Positions 33,461 to 44,487 of a stretch of 64,000 bases of DNA are shown in pieces; the stretch's first letter is position 1, and every line of letters begins with the position of its first letter. The DNA comes from Aurelia coerulea. Its lineage: Eukaryota; Cnidaria; Scyphozoa; Semaeostomeae; Ulmaridae. The DNA is taken from the NCBI GenBank assembly GCA_039566865.1, contig CM076949.1:20746501-20810500 (forward strand). Reading direction: 5' to 3'. Position numbers and translations under genes: made by a program. The notes beneath the pieces were generated by a model. It was not told the origin of the DNA. It searched no databases and worked only from the letters and a program-made list of their open reading frames with translations.

Positions 33461-34959
33461 TTATTTGTTTATTTCCTGAAATATCTTCTTTATTTTCCTT
33501 CCCATTTCTTTCATTTCTTTCGTAGTTCCTTCCAGCGTTTGTAATAATGTGAAGGTTTCTTCTCTTTCTTCTTTATCTCTGAACAGGTTGTCCGTGCCTG
33601 GACAGTGTAATATATAATGTCTTGTCGACTGATCTTTTTCCAGGCAAAATTTACATCTCCATATCCTACCCCAATATGGTTTTCTTGGGGTGGGATCTAA
33701 AATCCCTGCTCTTCCTCTGAATATTGCACTCGCAACTTTTCTACTTAAGTACATATATTTTTTTGGCTCCCCTGGTGTCACTTCGTCAATTGCTATATCT
33801 CCATATCTTTCACTCTCTTTAATTTCTTTTCCAAACTGTATTTTCAGCTTGTTCTTAATTTTGTCTTTTACAATGTTTTTCCACTTTTGCTTGCTAGTAT
33901 GCTTTGCCTCTTGTATATCTACTTTCATTTCATTGGCAATTTGAATTATTTGTAGAAACCAAGGAAGTTCTTCCCATATTTGTGTGCTGACAACTTCTTT
34001 TATTGTTCTGTTGCTTTTCGTCTGGTTTATCCGGTGCCAAGTCATTAGCTTTCTTTTTGCTAGCTCATCTTTTATTGGCCAAATTCCAAACTCATTTAGG
34101 AGGGAAATTTTCGGCGTTCCTTGTGGCAGATTTCCAAAGTTTCTTAAGATCTTTCTTGTTGTCAATTCCATCATTTCTTCTTCTTTCTTTGTGGTGGCAA
34201 AAGCCCCCATCCCGTATAACAACTTTGGGATCATGCATTTCTTATACAGTATTATCATTGCCTTCATGTAGGCACTGCTCATTGTTCCATTTTCTATTGT
34301 TAATCCTAACGAGGCTACCATATTTATTATTTCTTCCTCTTTTCTCTGAATGTGTGTGATGTTGTTATTTCCTTTGCTAAAATGGTGTCCTAGTATTTTT
34401 TCATGGTCAACTTCTTGTAATTGTTGTCCCCCTATGAAGGTGTCATCAAATTTTCTCTTTCTCTGCTTTCCTATGATTAGTATTTTACACTTTTCTTCTG
34501 AAAATATGATCTGATTTTCCTCTGCACTTTTGGTCATTGCCTGAATCATTACAGCCTCGTCTTCCCTTTCTGGAATTATTAGGGTGATATCATCTTGCCA
34601 TCCTATTGCTGGTACGATCTTTCTTCCGATGGCGGTTCCTCTGCCTGTCTTTTCAACATCTTCAATCACTTTTGCTGCATGTTGTGCATACAATATTGCG
34701 GATAGTCCACTTCCCTGTCTAATGGATTCCTCCACTGTAAAGTTTTGGCTATAACTCTCTTCGTCTCCTTTTATCCTCGCTACCAGGTTCTGGTTAATCT
34801 CGATGATCAATCTTAAAATGTTGCCTTTTATGTTCCTATCTGTTAGATTGTTGAAGACTCCTGCCCTCCATGCCTGATCAAATGCCTTTTTCACATCAGT
34901 AATCACAAGCTTTATGTTCTTACCTCTCTTTGTGTTTATGTCAATTGTAGTTTGGAGCA
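33461..34959 (-). pseudogene. LINE reverse transcriptase, C-terminal part
   Basis: Continues the previous fragment in the same frame once the transposon and one TTAA are removed. Palm motif A is LVITDVKKAFDQAW, followed by SIRQGSGLSAILYA (motif B) and GWQDDITLI (motif C, with WQDD in place of the usual Y/F-A-D-D). A C-terminal knuckle CKFC..HYILHC is near the end. About 499 residues, no internal stop: apparently intact until split. Confidence 0.9.
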
Positions 34960-35283
34960 TTAAAGGAGAACTGACACGCCAAAACTATTTTTTCGTATCC
35001 CATGTAGTTTTTGGCGAGGATTAAGAATCTGTCAATATTTTGTAGAAATTTAATTTCGTTTTGACTTTACAACGGTTTTAGTAGAAAAACGAAAATTACG
35101 CCGACTCTGTCCCGATCAATTCCGAGCCTGAACGAGACTTCGCCGACGGCTATCTACGTCACAGATACCATGTTCATAAATCACACCACAGCACCACAGT
35201 CCACAGCGTTTGTTGGCAAGAAGCACACCGAGTTGTCTTTGTATTTGTCTTCTTTCCGTGATATTTGAATCAAATTTGAAAGT

Positions 35284-36778
35284 ATGGACTCCGATTCTGA
35301 AACAGAATTTGAATATCCTGACATTCAACAAGCAGATATCATACAACCTTTCATGTTTGAGCCTCCCGCTCCTGGAGGAGCTGTTGCGGCCGATAGGCCT
35401 AACTCGTCGAGTGAAGAGGAAGACGATGATATCAACATCGAAAGGATTGGAAATACTGACTGGTATGAACCTACATTACATTAATTATCGTTTCATCTTT
35501 TACCTATTTAACTATTGCTATCATAGGAGGAAGTTTCTTGGGCATTTTGGTTTGATTTGTGCATTTTTTTCAAGGTGTACTTGTGGCCATTGTCTGGTGA
35601 TGACGAAGGGACGAGAGAGTGTGTGCTGCCAGGAAACAGCTGTCATTCGGGAACGAGCCGGTCATTTAAATTGTATCTCTCTTCACGAAGGATTTTTTGC
35701 AGTTTGCCTGAATCGTCATGTCATAGAAACTGTAATTTATCAGTATATCGACGAGGAAGAGGGTGGCTACATAGACGATAGACCAACTTTTGAGTAAGGA
35801 ATTTTCTTCCAAAGTTATTACTTGTCGTTATACTCTATATGACTAGACTACCTAGGCCTAAACTTATGGAAAGTTTAGCCAGAAAAACTTTCTTTTCACA
35901 ATATATTATTTTGAAATTGACCTCATTACTAAAATTTGTAATAATTTGTCATAATTGTTCATGGGGCAATTTATCTGATTTCTTCAAACTTCCCTGACTG
36001 AGGAGGCAAGGCAAGCAAACTATCTTACCCTGGTCTCAAATACACAAACCTTGGAGAAATAAGTCCAGGGCAGATGGGAGGGGGGGGGGGGTAGGTACTT
36101 GACTTGTACAGGGGTGTGCCCACAAACAGTTTTTACCCTGATCCAGAATTTTTCGTTCCAAATGATAAACAATTCTCCAAAACTTGGCGAAAGGTATACT
36201 CCAAACGATATGAATTTGGCCGAAAAACAACCCAGTCTAACACATTATACCCTTTTGATATGTTTTCACACCCTGCTTTAGAAAAATTGCCATCTTTTGA
36301 TACCCTGCCCCAGAAAACATAGGTGAAAATGATACCCTAAAAAACGGCACATCCCCATCGGACAAATATGCTATATGCCCCCCAGAAATAAGTACATAAT
36401 CTAACAAAATCTATTGCATACATGAATTTAAAAGATGAATTGTTCATATCATATTTTCAAAAATTTACAAAACTTAATTGGAAATGGCAAGATGTCTTTG
36501 CACAAGTGCATTTGATGTTACATATTACATGCTGAATGTGCAAGCAAATTCAGTCCTGTTTTCTTTTATCAAATATTGTCATCAGTAGTTGATCATATTT
36601 GTTTAATGCTTTCAGACTATTTCGACATTTGGCATATAGGCAGTTTGTGCGGTGGATATGGCACAGGCTTGGTCGCCATGTGAGAAAGGTACTTCCCTCA
36701 TGTGTTGTGAACAAAATCCGTGGTCAGTTTCCCTCAGAAGCATTTACTGGATTTAGACTGGCAGGTGTAGATCATTGA
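35284..36778 (+). CDS. P2X7-receptor-type cytoplasmic ballast domain protein carried by the Kolobok element
   Basis: Three exons join in phase: 35284-35462, 35575-35793 and 36616-36778 (stop TGA 36776-36778), giving 186 residues. Residues 1-58 are acidic (SSSEEEDDD). From about residue 59 the ballast domain begins: DWCTCGHCLVM, ESVCCQE, LNCISLHEGF, VCLNRHV, then FRHLAYRQFVRW, KVLPSCVVNKIRGQFPSE and FTGF. These match in order the zinc-coordinating C-terminal domain of vertebrate P2X7 (NWCTCGNC.., LRHCAYR, LPSCCRWRIR, FPKSEGQYSGF) and its stand-alone invertebrate relatives. No transmembrane segment or P2X ectodomain is present. The 3' end lies about 95 bp from the 3' end of the transposase gene, so the genes converge. 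Role in transposition is unknown. Confidence 0.87.
36063..36360. mobile_element. G-rich MITE in intron 2 of the ballast gene
   Basis: Inverted ends TGTACAGGGGTGTGCC and GGCACATCCCCATC, with TACCCTGATCC/GATACCCTGCCCC-type repeats inside. Boundaries are approximate; a G run precedes it at 36078. Confidence 0.5.
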
Positions 36779-38943
36779 TCTAAACCAGGTAGGATTAAGA
36801 TTTTGCATCATCTTAGCTGTAAAATGTAACATGCTAGAACTGCTCAGAAACTAACACAACAAGAATTAAATATCTAAACTAGGTCTCTTTTCCTGATATT
36901 ACGTTTTGATGCAATTTTTCGCCTCTTTCGCAACAAATTATCCCCAGGTACAGCCGAAGTTGTTCTCCTTTTTCTGGCTTTTTTCTCTGGTTGCTCTTGC
37001 AATGCCCCTTCCAATGCACTACCTTCACTTGGCGCTGTAACTGGAATCTGTATGTCTGATGCAAATCGTCCTCTGTGTTTCTTGACAAGGTCAGATTTTT
37101 CTTCCTTCTCGTGTGCAGATGACAATGGGCTTGGGACTTCTATTTCAGTTAACCCAGCTTTTGCCTTTTCATATGTCGGATATTTGTGCCACCTGGCTAT
37201 TGCCCTTTTTACCAACTTTGTGACATACCCTTAAAAACATACAGTAAGTATCTTAAATAATGAAGCAATATACGCATGTATTCTCCAAAAATATCCCTAT
37301 CATAATGTGTTCTTTGTATAAAGGCCATTGCACAGGATTATGTGCTGATAACAATGAATTATTTACACTCTCAAAGAATACCAAGAAAGAATAAATCTGT
37401 CACACTCAGTTTGATTATGATACTTTTTTCTGTTTTCATCAGACTTGCAACATTTGATAGAAAAAGGATATTCAACTCCCATTTAGGTAAACAAAGTTAA
37501 AAACTTCAATTTTGACATGATTTGTTTTACCCTCACTGCCTGAAAGGGCTATCTGCAACTAAGCATAGCAGTATTCATTACCAGATTTAATGTGAAATTA
37601 GACCACTTACTATATGTGCTTTTTGATTTGATTGGCTTGACGACACCTGAATTCTTGTATTTCAAATAAGAAACTCGCCATCTCTTTTCTCCATCTTTTG
37701 TTTCCAATTGAGGCTTGCCAGAATTCTCATTAAAATGAATAGCTGCCAGCATTACTCTGCAAAAAATTGCTTTGATTGATTTCCATTGACATATTTTGGC
37801 CTATACCACTAGATTCTATTCCATTGTAGTATACACTTTAGTTTTTGTTCTTTTAGAGTGCATGGTGTTTCCCTTGATTGGGCTATTTAATAAACATAAT
37901 AATCATGACAATTTATTCTGAAGTGAAAATGCTATAAACACACATGAAAAACTTAATAGGTAGTAATGTCCCCTGTTTTTTAAGTTTATTTTACAGAGCT
38001 AAATTCATAGACTCAATACAACATCCCAGTTACAACAACAACAACCTGTTTCCATTGCATTGAATGTTTAAATCAACAAACAATCATTTCATGCTCCTGC
38101 GCAACAACGTATTTCCGCTGCAGTGATCGTACTGTAAAAATGGAATTGCAGTGAAAACATTGGGATGAATGGATTGAGTCTATAATTCATTCCCTATGAT
38201 CTTTATTTCACAAAAAAATGATTCGTTTTCACAGCCTTTGAATCCCAAACAAGGAAATAATGTACAGTATCTTACCTGGCAGCCATGGGTAAAAAATGAA
38301 AGTGTGTGTGCTTTGGAGCAAAGTGCAGCACAATGTTATGAAATGATTCCAAATAACTGGTTTGTTCTTTTGGGGACAGCTTCATGATATCATTCACAAG
38401 AAATGGTTTTGTTAGCTTGTCCTTCAGCTCTTTGTATCCTTTGCTGCCTGCAAAGTATAGTCTCTTTTCATTTTCACAAGAAAACTGGTTATTTTGATTA
38501 TACAATAAAAATCAGGTCATTCTTGAGTTAAAAAATAATTTTCTTGAAAACAGAGAAAAAACGTACTAAAGGGGAAAGTATTTAAATCTCAAGATTGTTA
38601 CTATAACTACAACTGTATAGTTTCTTTCTTGTTTGTTGTTGTTTGGTTACAATAAAAAGTACAAATGGTCTGCAGTAGTGGATGGAGATTTTCCGGAACA
38701 ATTTTATATGAGATGAGAAAATGCAATATCTGCAATATTTGTTGCAACAGCACAGTACCTTTTTTTAGCCAGTCTCTCTCTAAGAGGCCATGTGGGCATG
38801 TTTTGTAGAGAGTCCCTTCGTGTTCATGAACATCTATTACATGATTGAACAATGAAAGCCACTTCTCTTTGACCAGTTGCTCATCATCATTACTTGAGCT
38901 GGCACACCAATGTAAATGATTTTTTATTGACTGTACCCAACTG

Positions 38944-39100
38944 CAGTGGCGGACACCTGGGGGGGCGAGGGGGTGCGATCGCCCCCCCAATGTTGGCTAG
39001 AACAAAGATCTTTTGTTTGAAAACAATAGAAACAAACAATGCTTTTTAACCGAAACAATAGCTTCGCCCCCCCCAATATTTGGCAAAGTGTCCGCCACTG
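38944..39100. mobile_element. hAT-type MITE (family K) inside a transposase exon
   Basis: 157 bp with CAGTGGCGGACAC ends and an exact 8-bp duplication CCCAACTG at 38936-38943 and 39101-39108. The 8-bp duplication and CAG..CTG ends fit hAT. Removing it restores the reading frame (..LSW-VQSIKNH..). Confidence 0.92.
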
Positions 39101-41327
39101 CCCAACTGAGGACTTCCATTGTTTTCTTGGCCTTCCCTATTTTTTCAACCTTCTTCCCAATTGCTGTAAAATGAAGAGCACAGCATAGAAACAAAATTGT
39201 GTGGATTATTATTTCACATTGTTCCTCTGACAGTCGCAGACAGTTCAGGAAGCATTTGGGAATTAGATATATACTGTATAATGTATATGTGAAATCTATA
39301 GTATATTACACTACAAATGTGGTCAAATTCTAGTCCATCAGATATCAGTATTTCTGGCTGAAACAGGTCAGTTACCCAAATATGGTGCATCACTGCCCAG
39401 TGTCTTTGCATTGCTGTTTCTGTCAATTGCTTATGTGTGAAATCTTCAGAAAATATTATTCGATCTTGCCTTGAAAATTGAAGAAAACTGAAGACAAAAT
39501 AGACATCAAGCAAAAAATAAATTGATACAAACATTGAAAAAGTTCTTTCAAAGAAAATATTACAACGAATTATGCACCAGCTTAATGCTCAACCTGTGTT
39601 GAATGCTATACATACATTTAAACTAATCACTTGTTCATAAACTCACATTTTGCAACATGGAATGCATCAAAACGATGTTTCTTGTTGGAATGCTTCTCAC
39701 GCATGTACTTTTTCACACCACCATGCCTATCCGTCACCAGCGTTTCAAAATCAATTCCACGTAGTTTGATGTCTGTGATTGCTCGTTGCAAACCGTTCAG
39801 TTCCATTTTGCTTGAGCCTCCAACTTCATTGCTCTGCAGACAAACATTTCTTGTTAACTACTCTATACTATACTGTTTGCAAATTATACTGTAGGAGGTC
39901 GACAAATTGGGAACAACAGAGATATTTTGACTTAATATAACAAATAGGCAATTGTTTATGCATTCCAATTTTGTTCAACAAAGCAATAACAAAATTTCAA
40001 AATAGTAAAAAGTTTTACCAGAATACTGCCATTTCAGGCTAAAGGCATCGCAAGGTGGGGTCACATCAAGTATCAAAAGGAGAACCATGAAACTATGTTT
40101 AGTTTTAAAGGTAAAAAACCATCTGTGGATGGGAGGTAAAAACAAAACAGACCCGACAATAGTTTTTGGGGGTTTTGGGGGATGGGTTCTTTGTGATAAA
40201 CATGTACTGTAGAATGAAATTTTTTACAAACCTGAATTGTCTGTACACTGATAATCTTTTTTGAAGATAAGTCCATCAATGAGTAGCTGCCATATTTTGC
40301 TGAGAAACCAGGAGAATCCATCCTTGCATCACCTCCTAACACTTTTATATTTTCGATGTTATCCTCTATTAATTGAGTCCTTTCTCTTTCCCAGTGCTCA
40401 AAGACGGATGGAACCAAATAGTACCGCTGTATTCTGTTGTATGTCCTTTCTGAAATTTGAGGAATCCGTAAATTATGGAAGAACAAGTAGATTTTGGCCG
40501 GCTGACAACCAGAAAAAAGAGTACTTGCAGCGACAAGAAAGTTACCAAGTGGCATGTTACCAAGAAAGTGTTGGCTGTTCCAGATCCTTTTATGCCCATT
40601 AACGCAAGTTGCATGTATCCTGAGCAGTGTTCCAGAAATCACCTTTTTGAGGTTATGACATGGTGCAAGGCAAAACATGCATACCGCAAAAAGTTGCATA
40701 AGGCAGCTTTCAAAGACAATGAACTTCCTCTCTTCATATGACTCTGGTTGCAACTCATCCTGAGAATCTGTTGAGTCACTGGACAATTCATCATCGGAAA
40801 CATCTGGTCGCCATTCAGGGCTGTCTGATCCGAAGTCCTCATTATCTGACTGTTCATCAAGGTTCTGATACGTTACGGTCTCATGCTTGCATTTTTGTAC
40901 AGTTTCCATTGTTTGAATTCCTAAAAAGTAAATGAATAATGAGTGTTGAACACAAAACAGTATATTTTTTGAGAGAATCTATAAAGTAAATATTTTTGTA
41001 GGAAGTCAAATGTACTGGAAAAGGCCAAAATTAAGAGATAATGAGGGAATTGTTTATATTTGCAAATCAATGTACAATGGTGCTATGCATCGAAATACAC
41101 CATGCAGTACAGTATATCAGTCTCATGAAATCACTTTTTAAGAAAAAATGAATCATTATTGCTGCAAAAAATCTTTCAATAATTTTTTGGCAAATATTCT
41201 ATGGTTGCATCAAATATTTATCCTTCCAACAATAGTTAAATTGATATTATAACAACTGTTTACAAAGCTTATGAATGCAAATAAAGGCAGAATACAGCAT
41301 ACGCCGGGCGGGGGTACTCCCATTAAT

Positions 41328-41723
41328 TGCCTAACAGAGGGTCCAGTCAGTATGAAGGTCTTCTTACGAAATGGCTACCAAATGGCCCTATTTGTCAACA
41401 TATACTACCAATTGGGGGTATTCCAAGCTTCCTGGCCAGTTAAAAGATTTCAACTCAGTGGGCTCCTCCGCATGGTAATATGGTTGTTGCATCATTAATT
41501 ATCAATGAATTTTGAAGCTTTCTTGCTTTGTTCAATCGGTCTTTACAATAGTTTGAAAAACTGAAAAAAAATTTGACTACTACATGCTCCAAATGGCCCA
41601 ATTTTAGGTCCACAAACTACCAATTGGGGGTTTATTTAAAAAGATGCTACCATTTGAGGGTATTTTTCAAAATTTTTGCTTTTACCCTCTTTAACCCTGA
41701 CTGGACCCCCCTGTCAGGCCACA
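41328..41723. mobile_element. MITE in intron 2 of the transposase gene
   Basis: Inverted ends AGGGTCCAGTCAG and CTGACTGGACCCCC. The interior repeats CTACCAATTGGGGGT / CTACCATTTGAGGGT. Outer boundaries are uncertain. Confidence 0.6.
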
Positions 41724-43274
41724 ATAAAGGATTTTATAATCATCTCCAATCTGCAAAAACATCTGCTATTCTTTGAGTGTTGATGGTACATACCTATAGT
41801 GTCTGTTGGTACTGATATCTGTGTCCTCTTTGAATGTGTGACTGGTTTGACTGTAAGTGTCTGAGTACATTTTTGTGCACATATCTTCTTTTCAGTCTGA
41901 CAGGAAGAACTTTGACATTTAATTGACTCTGTTTGGGTCGACACAGATATCCTATCCTTTTCACTGTGGGAGGAATTCATTGGGGTTTGGCATCCTACGG
42001 TTTTGTACAATTCTTCCACACCTGCTTCATCGTTTGATCCAATTCCCTCTCCTCCTGTTTCTGATTGTTGAATCAAATTTGCAATGATCTGTAATTTGAA
42101 ATAAATTTGAAGGTAGACATACATACAGCACATTAACAGTAGTATCAGTCAGGACTAGGGTTTAGAGCCTGTTTATTTAATTTTTGTTGCCAAAAGTTCC
42201 CAAAGATTTTGCACTTTTTGCTATGTCTTTTAACTGCAGAGTTTATCTATCTAATCTGTGGCAAATTCTTGTAATTATTATTTAACTGCAGAGTTTTGTC
42301 TTGTGCTAAACTATATTTTGAAATATCTTTGATAATACTAGTGGTCTTTAGTGAAGCTGAACACTAAGAGGGTGGACCCCCTGTCAAAATATGCCTTCCA
42401 AGAACCACCACACATATCAAACATGACCTGAAAAATATGATGGCACCAAAATATGGTGGGGGTTAAAACACGACTTGAACCAATCTTCTGCAATATCTTT
42501 CGTTCTACAAGAAATTCAAGAACCAGAAAATTTGCAAAACAAGCAAATATGATATTCAAACTAACCTCGTTGCGTTTTCGTTTTATAAATGCACCACCAC
42601 TGCGTTTGAACCTTTTAACAGGACTGCTTTTCGTGGGACTCAATGTTGGCCTCAGTGTTTTGCTCATGAAGGTATGTTTTCCTTTCTGCTGGCATTTCTT
42701 TTTAGGGGAGGAGAAGTCAAATATTGTTGGAATTGCATCAGCCTTTAGAGCAAGCTTGAAATAAACGCCGGTTGTCTTCATCAGCTCAGGATTTCTCACG
42801 AAACATTCATTAGTGAAATGACTTTCGCACAGTCTCGAAGCAACAGTGGGCCTAAAATTTTGCCGTTTCACACTCTGTACCCATCTTTTCCGTAACGCTG
42901 CATCCAGTGGAAATTTAAAAAGTGCCTTTCCGTCGCCAGTGCAGTTATAAGCAGAGCAAACAACCATTTCTAATAATTTACATTGCAACAATAAAGAAAT
43001 TCGTGCGTCGATTTTGCGTTCAGAAGGCTTCGGATGAAATTCTTGGAAGACAGTGACCAAACATGGTATCTGTGACGTCATGGATTTACTACGCCGACGC
43101 CTAACGAGCGGTAGCGAGAACTTGCTGAATTGTCGGGATTACCGAAGTGGTTTGTTGTTGCGTTTTGCACGAAAATGAGTAATAATAACGAAAAACGAAT
43201 ATAATATTCGTTTTCTACGTAAAAAACTACACCAGATACCTAAAAATAGTTTTGGCGTGTCAGTTCTCCTTTAA

Positions 43275-44445
43275 AAGATATTCTTCGGCTGCTTCGCCCG
43301 TTTTTCCGCCTCCTTGTAAGTCTGTTACATTTTCTTTTATCAATGGGGCGATTCTATGTGCTATTATCTTTTCTAAACATTTCAGAACACAAGAGGTTAA
43401 GGTCAGTCCTCGTTGATTCTTCAGCTCTTTTTTCGCTCCTTTTCCTTTATATATAGAAACGATGTCACCTAAAGCCCATTGTGATGGTATCATGTCCTTG
43501 TTTTCAAGCATATAATTGAAAACTGATGTTAATATTGGTGTTATTATGTCTTTCCCTTCTTTCAATAATTCATTTATGATCCCATCGGGGCCTGGGGCCT
43601 TTTTATTCTTAGTAGACATTATGGCTCTTGAGACTTCCTTTTCTGTAATTTGTTTGTTTAAATCTTGAACATGTTCATTATTCGCCAGGTCTGTGCTTAT
43701 CTTCATTTGTTGTTCTAATTTTTCATACAAGTTGTCCTCCTTTTCCTTTTCTTCTTTGCTTTGCTTTCGTTTTGAGTATAATTCTTTGTAGTATTCTGCT
43801 TTGGTTTGTAATATCTGTTGTTTCTCTTCGACGATTTCTCCGCATTTATTACTTATCTTTTCTTCTTCATTTGATGTTTTCTTTATGTTTCTGATTACTT
43901 TCCAGAAGTCTGGTTTATCTCTACATTCTGTATCTATCATTTTCTCAATCTGTCTGGCTTTCGTATTTTCTATTAGGTCGTTAACCATATCCTTCTGAGT
44001 TATATAAAGCTGTTTGAGTTCTTCCTTTTTCCTTTGGTTATTTTCTCTTTTCCAGGATTGCATTAATTCTCTTCTCCTTTTGATTGCATCTTTTATGGAG
44101 CTGTCATATCCAAGCATCCTTGCCTTTTTTTTAATTTTTATAGTCTTCTTTTTCATTACGCTCTGACTAGCATCTTTTATGCATGTTTCTATATTATTGT
44201 AGCTTTCTCCCTTTGTCTTATTATAGTTTTGTTTTATTGTACTTCTCAACTTTTCTCTATAGCGCTCCCATTGATTCTCTATCACTCTTATGGTCTTGAA
44301 TTTATTTCTTTTCTTTTCATGCTTCAGTTCATATTCTATGATCGATATCGATATGAGCCATATTATATCTATTTTGGTGTTTATTTGTGGATATATATTT
44401 TCCCCATGAGGCCTAACACCCTCACTCAGTTGGTAGGTAGCAACA
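43275..44445 (-). pseudogene. LINE reverse transcriptase, N-terminal part
   Basis: A lysine-rich N-terminal region of about 200 residues (KKTIKIKKKARMLGYDSSIK) precedes the RT fingers: KKAPGPDGI and the RGLTLTSCVLKCLEKII block (RT motif 2), then ADLQGG-like TDLQGGGKTG. The frame is cut at the TTAA insertion site. The clade was not assigned; no apurinic endonuclease lies upstream in the window. Confidence 0.88.
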
Positions 44446-44487
44446 ATGCATTAACCTATTAATTGTTAAGTGGTTGGGCTATCTGAC

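Follow-up and report, generated by a model that had tools for sequence, protein, structure and literature searches.

A ballast-domain gene related to the P2X7 receptor tail is the convergent second gene of a Kolobok transposon in Aurelia coerulea

The window analyzed here, a stretch of 64,000 nucleotides from Aurelia coerulea (assembly GCA_039566865.1, contig CM076949.1, positions 20,746,501 to 20,810,500), harbors what is almost certainly a Kol0-type Kolobok DNA transposon with two genes, the second of which, KolX, encodes a stand-alone relative of the cytoplasmic "ballast" domain of the P2X7 receptor. We consider the best overall explanation (rough probability 0.75) to be a Kol0 Kolobok that carries a THAP-DDE transposase and, convergent to it, KolX as an accessory protein. 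The interpretation is not new, as both the pairing of ballast and Kolobok and the idea of a capture by P2X7 have been in print since 2022. In the sections available, Kojima & Bao 2022 (PMC9587614) name KolX as the accessory protein of the Kol0 lineage, recognize its ballast fold, describe it across animal Kol0 elements, propose the capture of a KolX ballast by P2X7 (with P2X7 and nanor as derivatives) and mention a piggyBac relative. Rump et al. 2020 (PMC7016195) proposed that an ancient ballast was captured by a P2X4-like gene and, in the available text, count a single ballast gene or a few (<10) in each species and regard them as normal genes of the host, in an ancestral synteny; the terms "transpos", "Kolobok" and "mobile element" are absent from that text. 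Within the literature searched, KolX and Kolobok appear jointly in a single paper, and the combination of P2X7, transposon and ballast likewise in one. Relative to the available parts of these two papers, our additions are the scale and regular convergent layout of the pairing in one genome, a PYxFEP-type motif in the leader of the protein, and a short-loop type of KolX.

The element spans positions 34964-43270 (34960 to 43274 with its target-site duplications) and is bounded as TTAA-AGGAGAACTGACACGCC...GGCGTGTCAGTTCTCCT-TTAA. The TTAA duplication was read directly from the sequence on the left (34960..34963) and on the right (43271..43274), and is likewise present in copies L039 and L051 of the same family. 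An end-to-end match and comparison with L039 place the left terminal inverted repeat (TIR) of 49 bp, beginning AGGAGAACTGACACGCCAAAACTATTTTT, at 34964..35012 on the forward strand and the right one at 43222..43270 on the reverse strand; the left end and the window's own right end are inverted repeats with 91% identity over 53 bp including the TTAA. The termini read 5'-RR...YY-3' (AGGAGAACTG...CAGTTCTCCT), in agreement with the rule given for Kolobok in section 3 of PMC9587614. Long terminal direct repeats (~450 or 660 bp), a trait of KolobokP, are absent, and the comparison of the element with L039 shows inverted 49-bp terminal matches instead. An independent check on the boundaries comes from the surrounding DNA, where a reverse-transcriptase open reading frame (ORF) lies on the reverse strand with its 3' part at 33461..34959 and its 5' part at 43275..44450. 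Excising the element together with one TTAA joins both flanks into a single open frame, so that the element must have inserted into a retrotransposon and generated a 4-bp TTAA duplication in doing so. The boundaries, the duplications and the restored frame thus confirm the original prediction that the ballast gene lies wholly between the TIRs of a TTAA-flanked element, although the coordinates it gave (35284..36778) span the KolX gene alone and not the whole element.

KolX lies on the forward strand in three exons: exon 1 (35284..35462; splice model and motif scan) encodes an acidic leader with the motif PFMFEP and ends at a TG/GT donor, exon 2 (35575..35793; matches to P2RX7_C and to P2X7 in the PDB) carries the zinc-ligand region WCTCGHC...CC...C of the ballast, and exon 3 (36616..36778; splice model and P2RX7_C) reads FRHLAYRQFVRW...LPSCVVNKIRGQFPSEAFTGF up to a TGA stop. 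They join in phase across GT..AG introns into a product of 186 amino acids, in which all residues quoted from three in-phase exons in the original prediction were found in the order stated. The sole Pfam match of this product is P2RX7_C (PF20478; E=1.1e-19, 71.6 bits, cut-off 23.5), i.e., the P2X channel domain with its transmembrane helices was not found in it, and at E<=0.001 its phmmer matches in the PDB are only four distinct sequences, all P2X7 (E=2.2e-9 to 8.1e-7). Seven putative zinc cysteines (C61, C63, C66, C77, C78, C93 and C162), paired with those of P2X7 by motif, are kept in 57-60 of 60 family proteins, and helix residues besides the cysteines are also conserved. The predicted structure of a homolog, P0002, matches P2X7 over the whole domain far above background. 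On sequence and predicted fold, the resemblance to the P2X7 ballast is therefore not one of chance, which is rejected by the Pfam and phmmer significance and by the fold match. A similarity that merely converged on a cysteine pattern, with no homology behind it, would agree with the identity of only 23-28% in the structural alignment and with the unequal spacing from the CC pair to the next cysteine (14 residues in window KolX, 6 in P2X7). However, the same profile, phmmer and fold tests exclude it at their level, the conserved helix residues speak against it as well, and we regard its probability as negligible. Outside the ballast itself, a PYxFEP-type motif occurs in 48 of 60 acidic leaders (family alignment A2) versus 0.1% of shuffled leaders, a generous control given that the pattern was composed after viewing the alignment. 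The closest named homologs are P0002 and P0004, whose "GoldUCD/Seg" labels we take to be Aurelia, together with P0052 and P0128 from Rhopilema. As far as the available texts go, "acidic" refers in PMC9587614 to catalytic residues only, and neither "acidic" nor "YQFEP" occurs in PMC7016195.

The transposase gene runs on the reverse strand towards KolX, with only 95 bp between the two stop codons, and was modeled by hand as eight exons with GT..AG introns. Exon 1 (42566..42967) encodes a THAP domain (Pfam THAP, E=2.9e-13, on the ORF containing the exon) and is followed by exon 2 (41794..42088). Alignment A3 supports the first catalytic D in exon 3 (40232..40920; GGDARMDSPGFSAKYG), the second in exon 4 (39647..39833; TDRH) together with the C/DxxH signature (DAFH), and the third catalytic residue, E, in exon 6 (38276..38447; LESFH), with E462 and H465 near-invariant. 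Between them lies exon 5 (38759..39163) with a His/Cys zinc-finger region, and the gene closes with exon 7 (37611..37756) and exon 8 plus stop (36874..37229). Accordingly, a DDD/E transposase with C/DxxH between the second D and the E, combined with THAP, places the element in Kolobok, and the ballast protein encoded as its second gene places it in Kol0. Residues H375, H400, H405, C416 and H418, at >=90% in alignment A3 between C/DxxH and the last E, were assigned to the published zinc-finger motif by position only. A homolog from Xenopus laevis (P0174) matches at E=8.6e-62. In the window, exon 5 is split by a 157-bp insert resembling a miniature inverted-repeat transposable element (38944..39100, no strand assigned; termini CAGTGGCGGACAC/GTGTCCGCCACTG; from sequence and comparison with L039), which is flanked by an 8-bp duplication, CCCAACTG (38936-38943 and 39101-39108), of hAT-like size. 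The insert introduces a stop into the window transposase and is missing from L039; the KolX frame is open in the window copy in spite of its broken transposase.

The association of ballast and transposase extends far beyond this copy in the 574 Mb genome searched (with the window on contig C7). Searching it for KolX yielded 153 matches, with the best 150 of 484 candidates scored and 150 rows used, which merged into at least 117 ballast loci, nine segmental duplicates and other decayed copies included; the transposase exon search gave 150 matches (best 150 of 467 scored) and 149 merged loci. A match to an exon of the Kolobok transposase lies within 10 kb of at least 46 of these 117 loci, and in 45 of the pairs the genes are convergent, as in the window, with a single divergent exception. 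In 500 shuffles, which assumed 25 Mb for contigs of unknown size and did not preserve the local clustering of elements, the number of such pairs averaged 1.5 and never exceeded 5.

Four loci of other families (L056-L059) all have transposase homology in convergent orientation, even though L056, L057 and L058 are among those whose transposase the scored lists missed, so that 46 is a lower bound. At L057 this homology covers only ~70-84 residues. The stretch taken at L056 was symmetric around the ballast ORF, whereas those of L057-L059 lay mainly on the side where a transposase was expected, and orientation at these three is thus not an unbiased test. No TIRs were found in these 5-6 kb stretches, which are possibly too short. 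KolX in other families is often a single ORF of ~160-250 codons, and the identity of the genome's ballast proteins to the window protein reaches down to ~30%. Other Kolobok copies therefore do carry the same gene in the same convergent layout, the test that the original prediction had set for itself. Its assignment of the ballast gene to Kolobok stands, and what it called cargo is no chance passenger but a known second gene of Kol0. No ballast was confirmed in scans of viral contigs (30 pattern matches) or of prokaryotic contigs (53). Two gene models (P0025 and P0095; oyster and sea spider) join a THAP or MULE transposase domain with a ballast; the annotation has probably run transposon genes together in these models, unless they are true fusions.

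Within the window family, the left end has 21 matches in the genome at the DNA level, including some right ends. Only two full elements carry both genes, the window element and the near-identical L039 with its own TTAA duplication. L051 (3,180 bp) has termini at both ends and TTAA on each side, and L050 (3,812 bp), which is diverged and retains KolX remnants, has both termini as well, with TTAA on the left and, on the right, a TTAA preceded by an extra T. Nine more copies (L040-L048, contigs C22 and C5) are reduced to the left part of the element within the stretches examined and have a common left flank, from which we conclude that they arose by segmental duplication of a single truncated insertion. 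The longest match (L040-L044) extends over 9.6 kb at 99.4%, in segmental duplications common to C22 and C5. Counting the eleven KolX-bearing copies (window, L039 and L040-L048) as eleven transpositions was consequently rejected, and dN/dS on the duplicates is uninformative.

What KolX does can be approached by analogy. In other Kolobok lineages the accessory protein is a nuclease or a helicase (PMC9587614, section 10, among the parts available), making a part in the assembly or processing of the transposase complex the simplest reading for KolX as well. We thus favor, as the probable case, that KolX would be an accessory protein resident in the element and retained for transposition, not passenger DNA; the helper function that the original prediction suggested is plausible. 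Most likely it would act as a structural partner: the zinc/helical ballast would fold into a compact scaffold, and the PYxFEP-type peptide in the acidic leader would dock on the transposase or on a host factor. KolX could in this way help the transposase complex to assemble, or to become licensed, on the element ends; this particular mechanism we put forward only tentatively. Alternatively, KolX could stand outside the transposition machinery and protect the element as a regulator (repressor, host-defense antagonist or copy-number control). An acidic leader next to a zinc fold is compatible with a regulator working through protein-protein contacts, and the open KolX frame beside a broken transposase would fit too; yet the nucleases and helicases in the accessory slot of other lineages suggest a part in the DNA reaction, and we think it unlikely. 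Still less likely, in our view, is an assembly function of KolX that depends on guanine nucleotides, by which it would supply the Kolobok transposase with a GTP cofactor in the manner of the built-in GTP-binding domain of the THAP-bearing P element transposase. Three (R546, H547 and R578) of the five guanine-nucleotide contacts named for rat P2X7 in the available text of Rump et al. (PMC7016195) are kept in window KolX, but the other two, R574 and K583, are lost, the former occurring in 0 of 60 family proteins and the latter not being among the six commonest residues there. The P element transposase is not among the top 50 fold matches listed for the transposase, which excludes nothing.

The fate of R574 and K583 in the family is one of several points that also weigh against a Kol0 element with KolX as its accessory protein. 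The phmmer alignment shifts the CC pair, leaving those of KolX and P2X7 not opposite each other before pairing by motif, and the ballast fold was predicted for P0002 (50% identical over 89%) and not for the spliced window product. Each of the nine L040-L048 duplicates has a damaged KolX (a premature stop, or loss of the start together with one inserted base). The window element and L039 differ at no KolX position (~1% chance under the background rate), a weak sign of constraint at the sequence level. Several of the 46 pairs are same-family copies with equal spacings (e.g., 2,731 or 2,109-2,110 bp), hence not 46 independent events. Finally, the scored lists give no transposase match within 10 kb for 71 of the 117 ballast loci, the nine segmental duplicates among them; apart from those where one was missed, these could be genes that stand alone, have decayed or were domesticated. 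Such loci, together with the ordinary host genes in ancestral synteny of PMC7016195, would be expected if a host ballast gene had been captured recently, once, by a Kolobok in this host lineage and were carried as cargo without a role. We consider this very improbable, given that the gene recurs, in an identical convergent arrangement, among divergent families of this genome and that KolX is described in animal Kol0 elements at large; the pairing at 46 of 117 loci, 45 of them convergent, together with L056-L059 largely refutes it. A single capture long ago, at the root of the Kol0 lineage, may have occurred, which is a separate claim.

A Kol0 element with KolX as accessory gene bears directly on the receptor: in the published proposal P2X7 carries a domesticated KolX relative, and fish nanor probably does likewise. 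The original prediction had suggested a possible transposon origin of the P2X7 ballast, which the available sections of PMC9587614 had already proposed in 2022; this direction of transfer is a proposal, with P2X7 on very long branches in our trees. The KolX at L056 (2834-3364), which runs towards a divergent Kolobok transposase, is encoded in a single ORF and has a short loop between the CC pair and the next cysteine, like P2X7. This loop has 4 residues, and a script measured it in 114 of 120 rows (109 at >=13, 5 at <=6), a rough count as three of the five short ones (P0079, P0088 and P0114) may be misread cysteines and 9e3m (6 by eye) is not among them. P2X7 grouped with the L056 and L057 ORFs in FastTree (120 rows; support 0.86, versus 0.78 with L056 alone) and in a fast IQ-TREE run (52 of the 120 rows; 95.6 versus 30.8), the L057 ORF being without one zinc cysteine after the CC pair. 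With distances as large as 3.5-4.2, long-branch attraction is likely; the short-loop type is possibly, on weak grounds, nearer to P2X7. It is improbable that the vertebrate P2X7 ballast derives from a single-ORF short-loop KolX like that of L056 and not from the canonical Kol0 KolX, its guanine-nucleotide site having originally been a device for assembling the transposase complex.

The clean boundaries confirm the P2X7 tail as a member of a transposon protein family, and the counts widen the view of ballast genes beyond a small host family, with at least 117 merged loci in a single genome, counting decayed copies, and at least 46 beside a Kolobok transposase. For P2X7 research, KolX offers a stand-alone, conserved model of the domain with short testable features, i.e., the PYxFEP-type motif and the short-loop type.

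Among known systems, the window element shares with KolobokP, KolobokD, KolobokE and KolobokH the presence of an accessory protein, in KolobokP likewise on the complementary strand, but theirs are nucleases or helicases (in KolobokP a His-Me nuclease, beside long terminal direct repeats) as far as the available description goes, whereas the present element has neither of the KolobokP features and encodes a ballast protein as its second gene. Fish nanor and the short "P2X7-like" proteins (PTHR36981) are stand-alone ballast proteins as well; the available text of PMC7016195 treats them as host genes, whereas many jellyfish ballast genes here adjoin a transposase. One ballast ORF from a tick is reported in the same text to include a "TAHP" domain (sic), in keeping with a Kolobok origin. 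With the cytoplasmic ballast of P2X7 (PDB 6u9v, 9e3m), window KolX has in common the fold (via its homolog), the zinc cysteines and the equivalents of R546, H547 and R578; it differs in having no channel domain, an acidic PYxFEP-type leader, a longer CC-to-C loop and no equivalents of R574 and K583. The closest counterpart is the Kolobok-1_XT type of Kol0 with KolX, which by its published description (PMC9587614, parts available) has the same TTAA duplication, the same 5'-RR..YY-3' ends, the same THAP-DDE transposase with C/DxxH and, as second gene, the same ballast-fold protein with seven cysteines; the window element, with a three-exon KolX and an eight-exon transposase in our hand-made models, shows no categorical difference from it.
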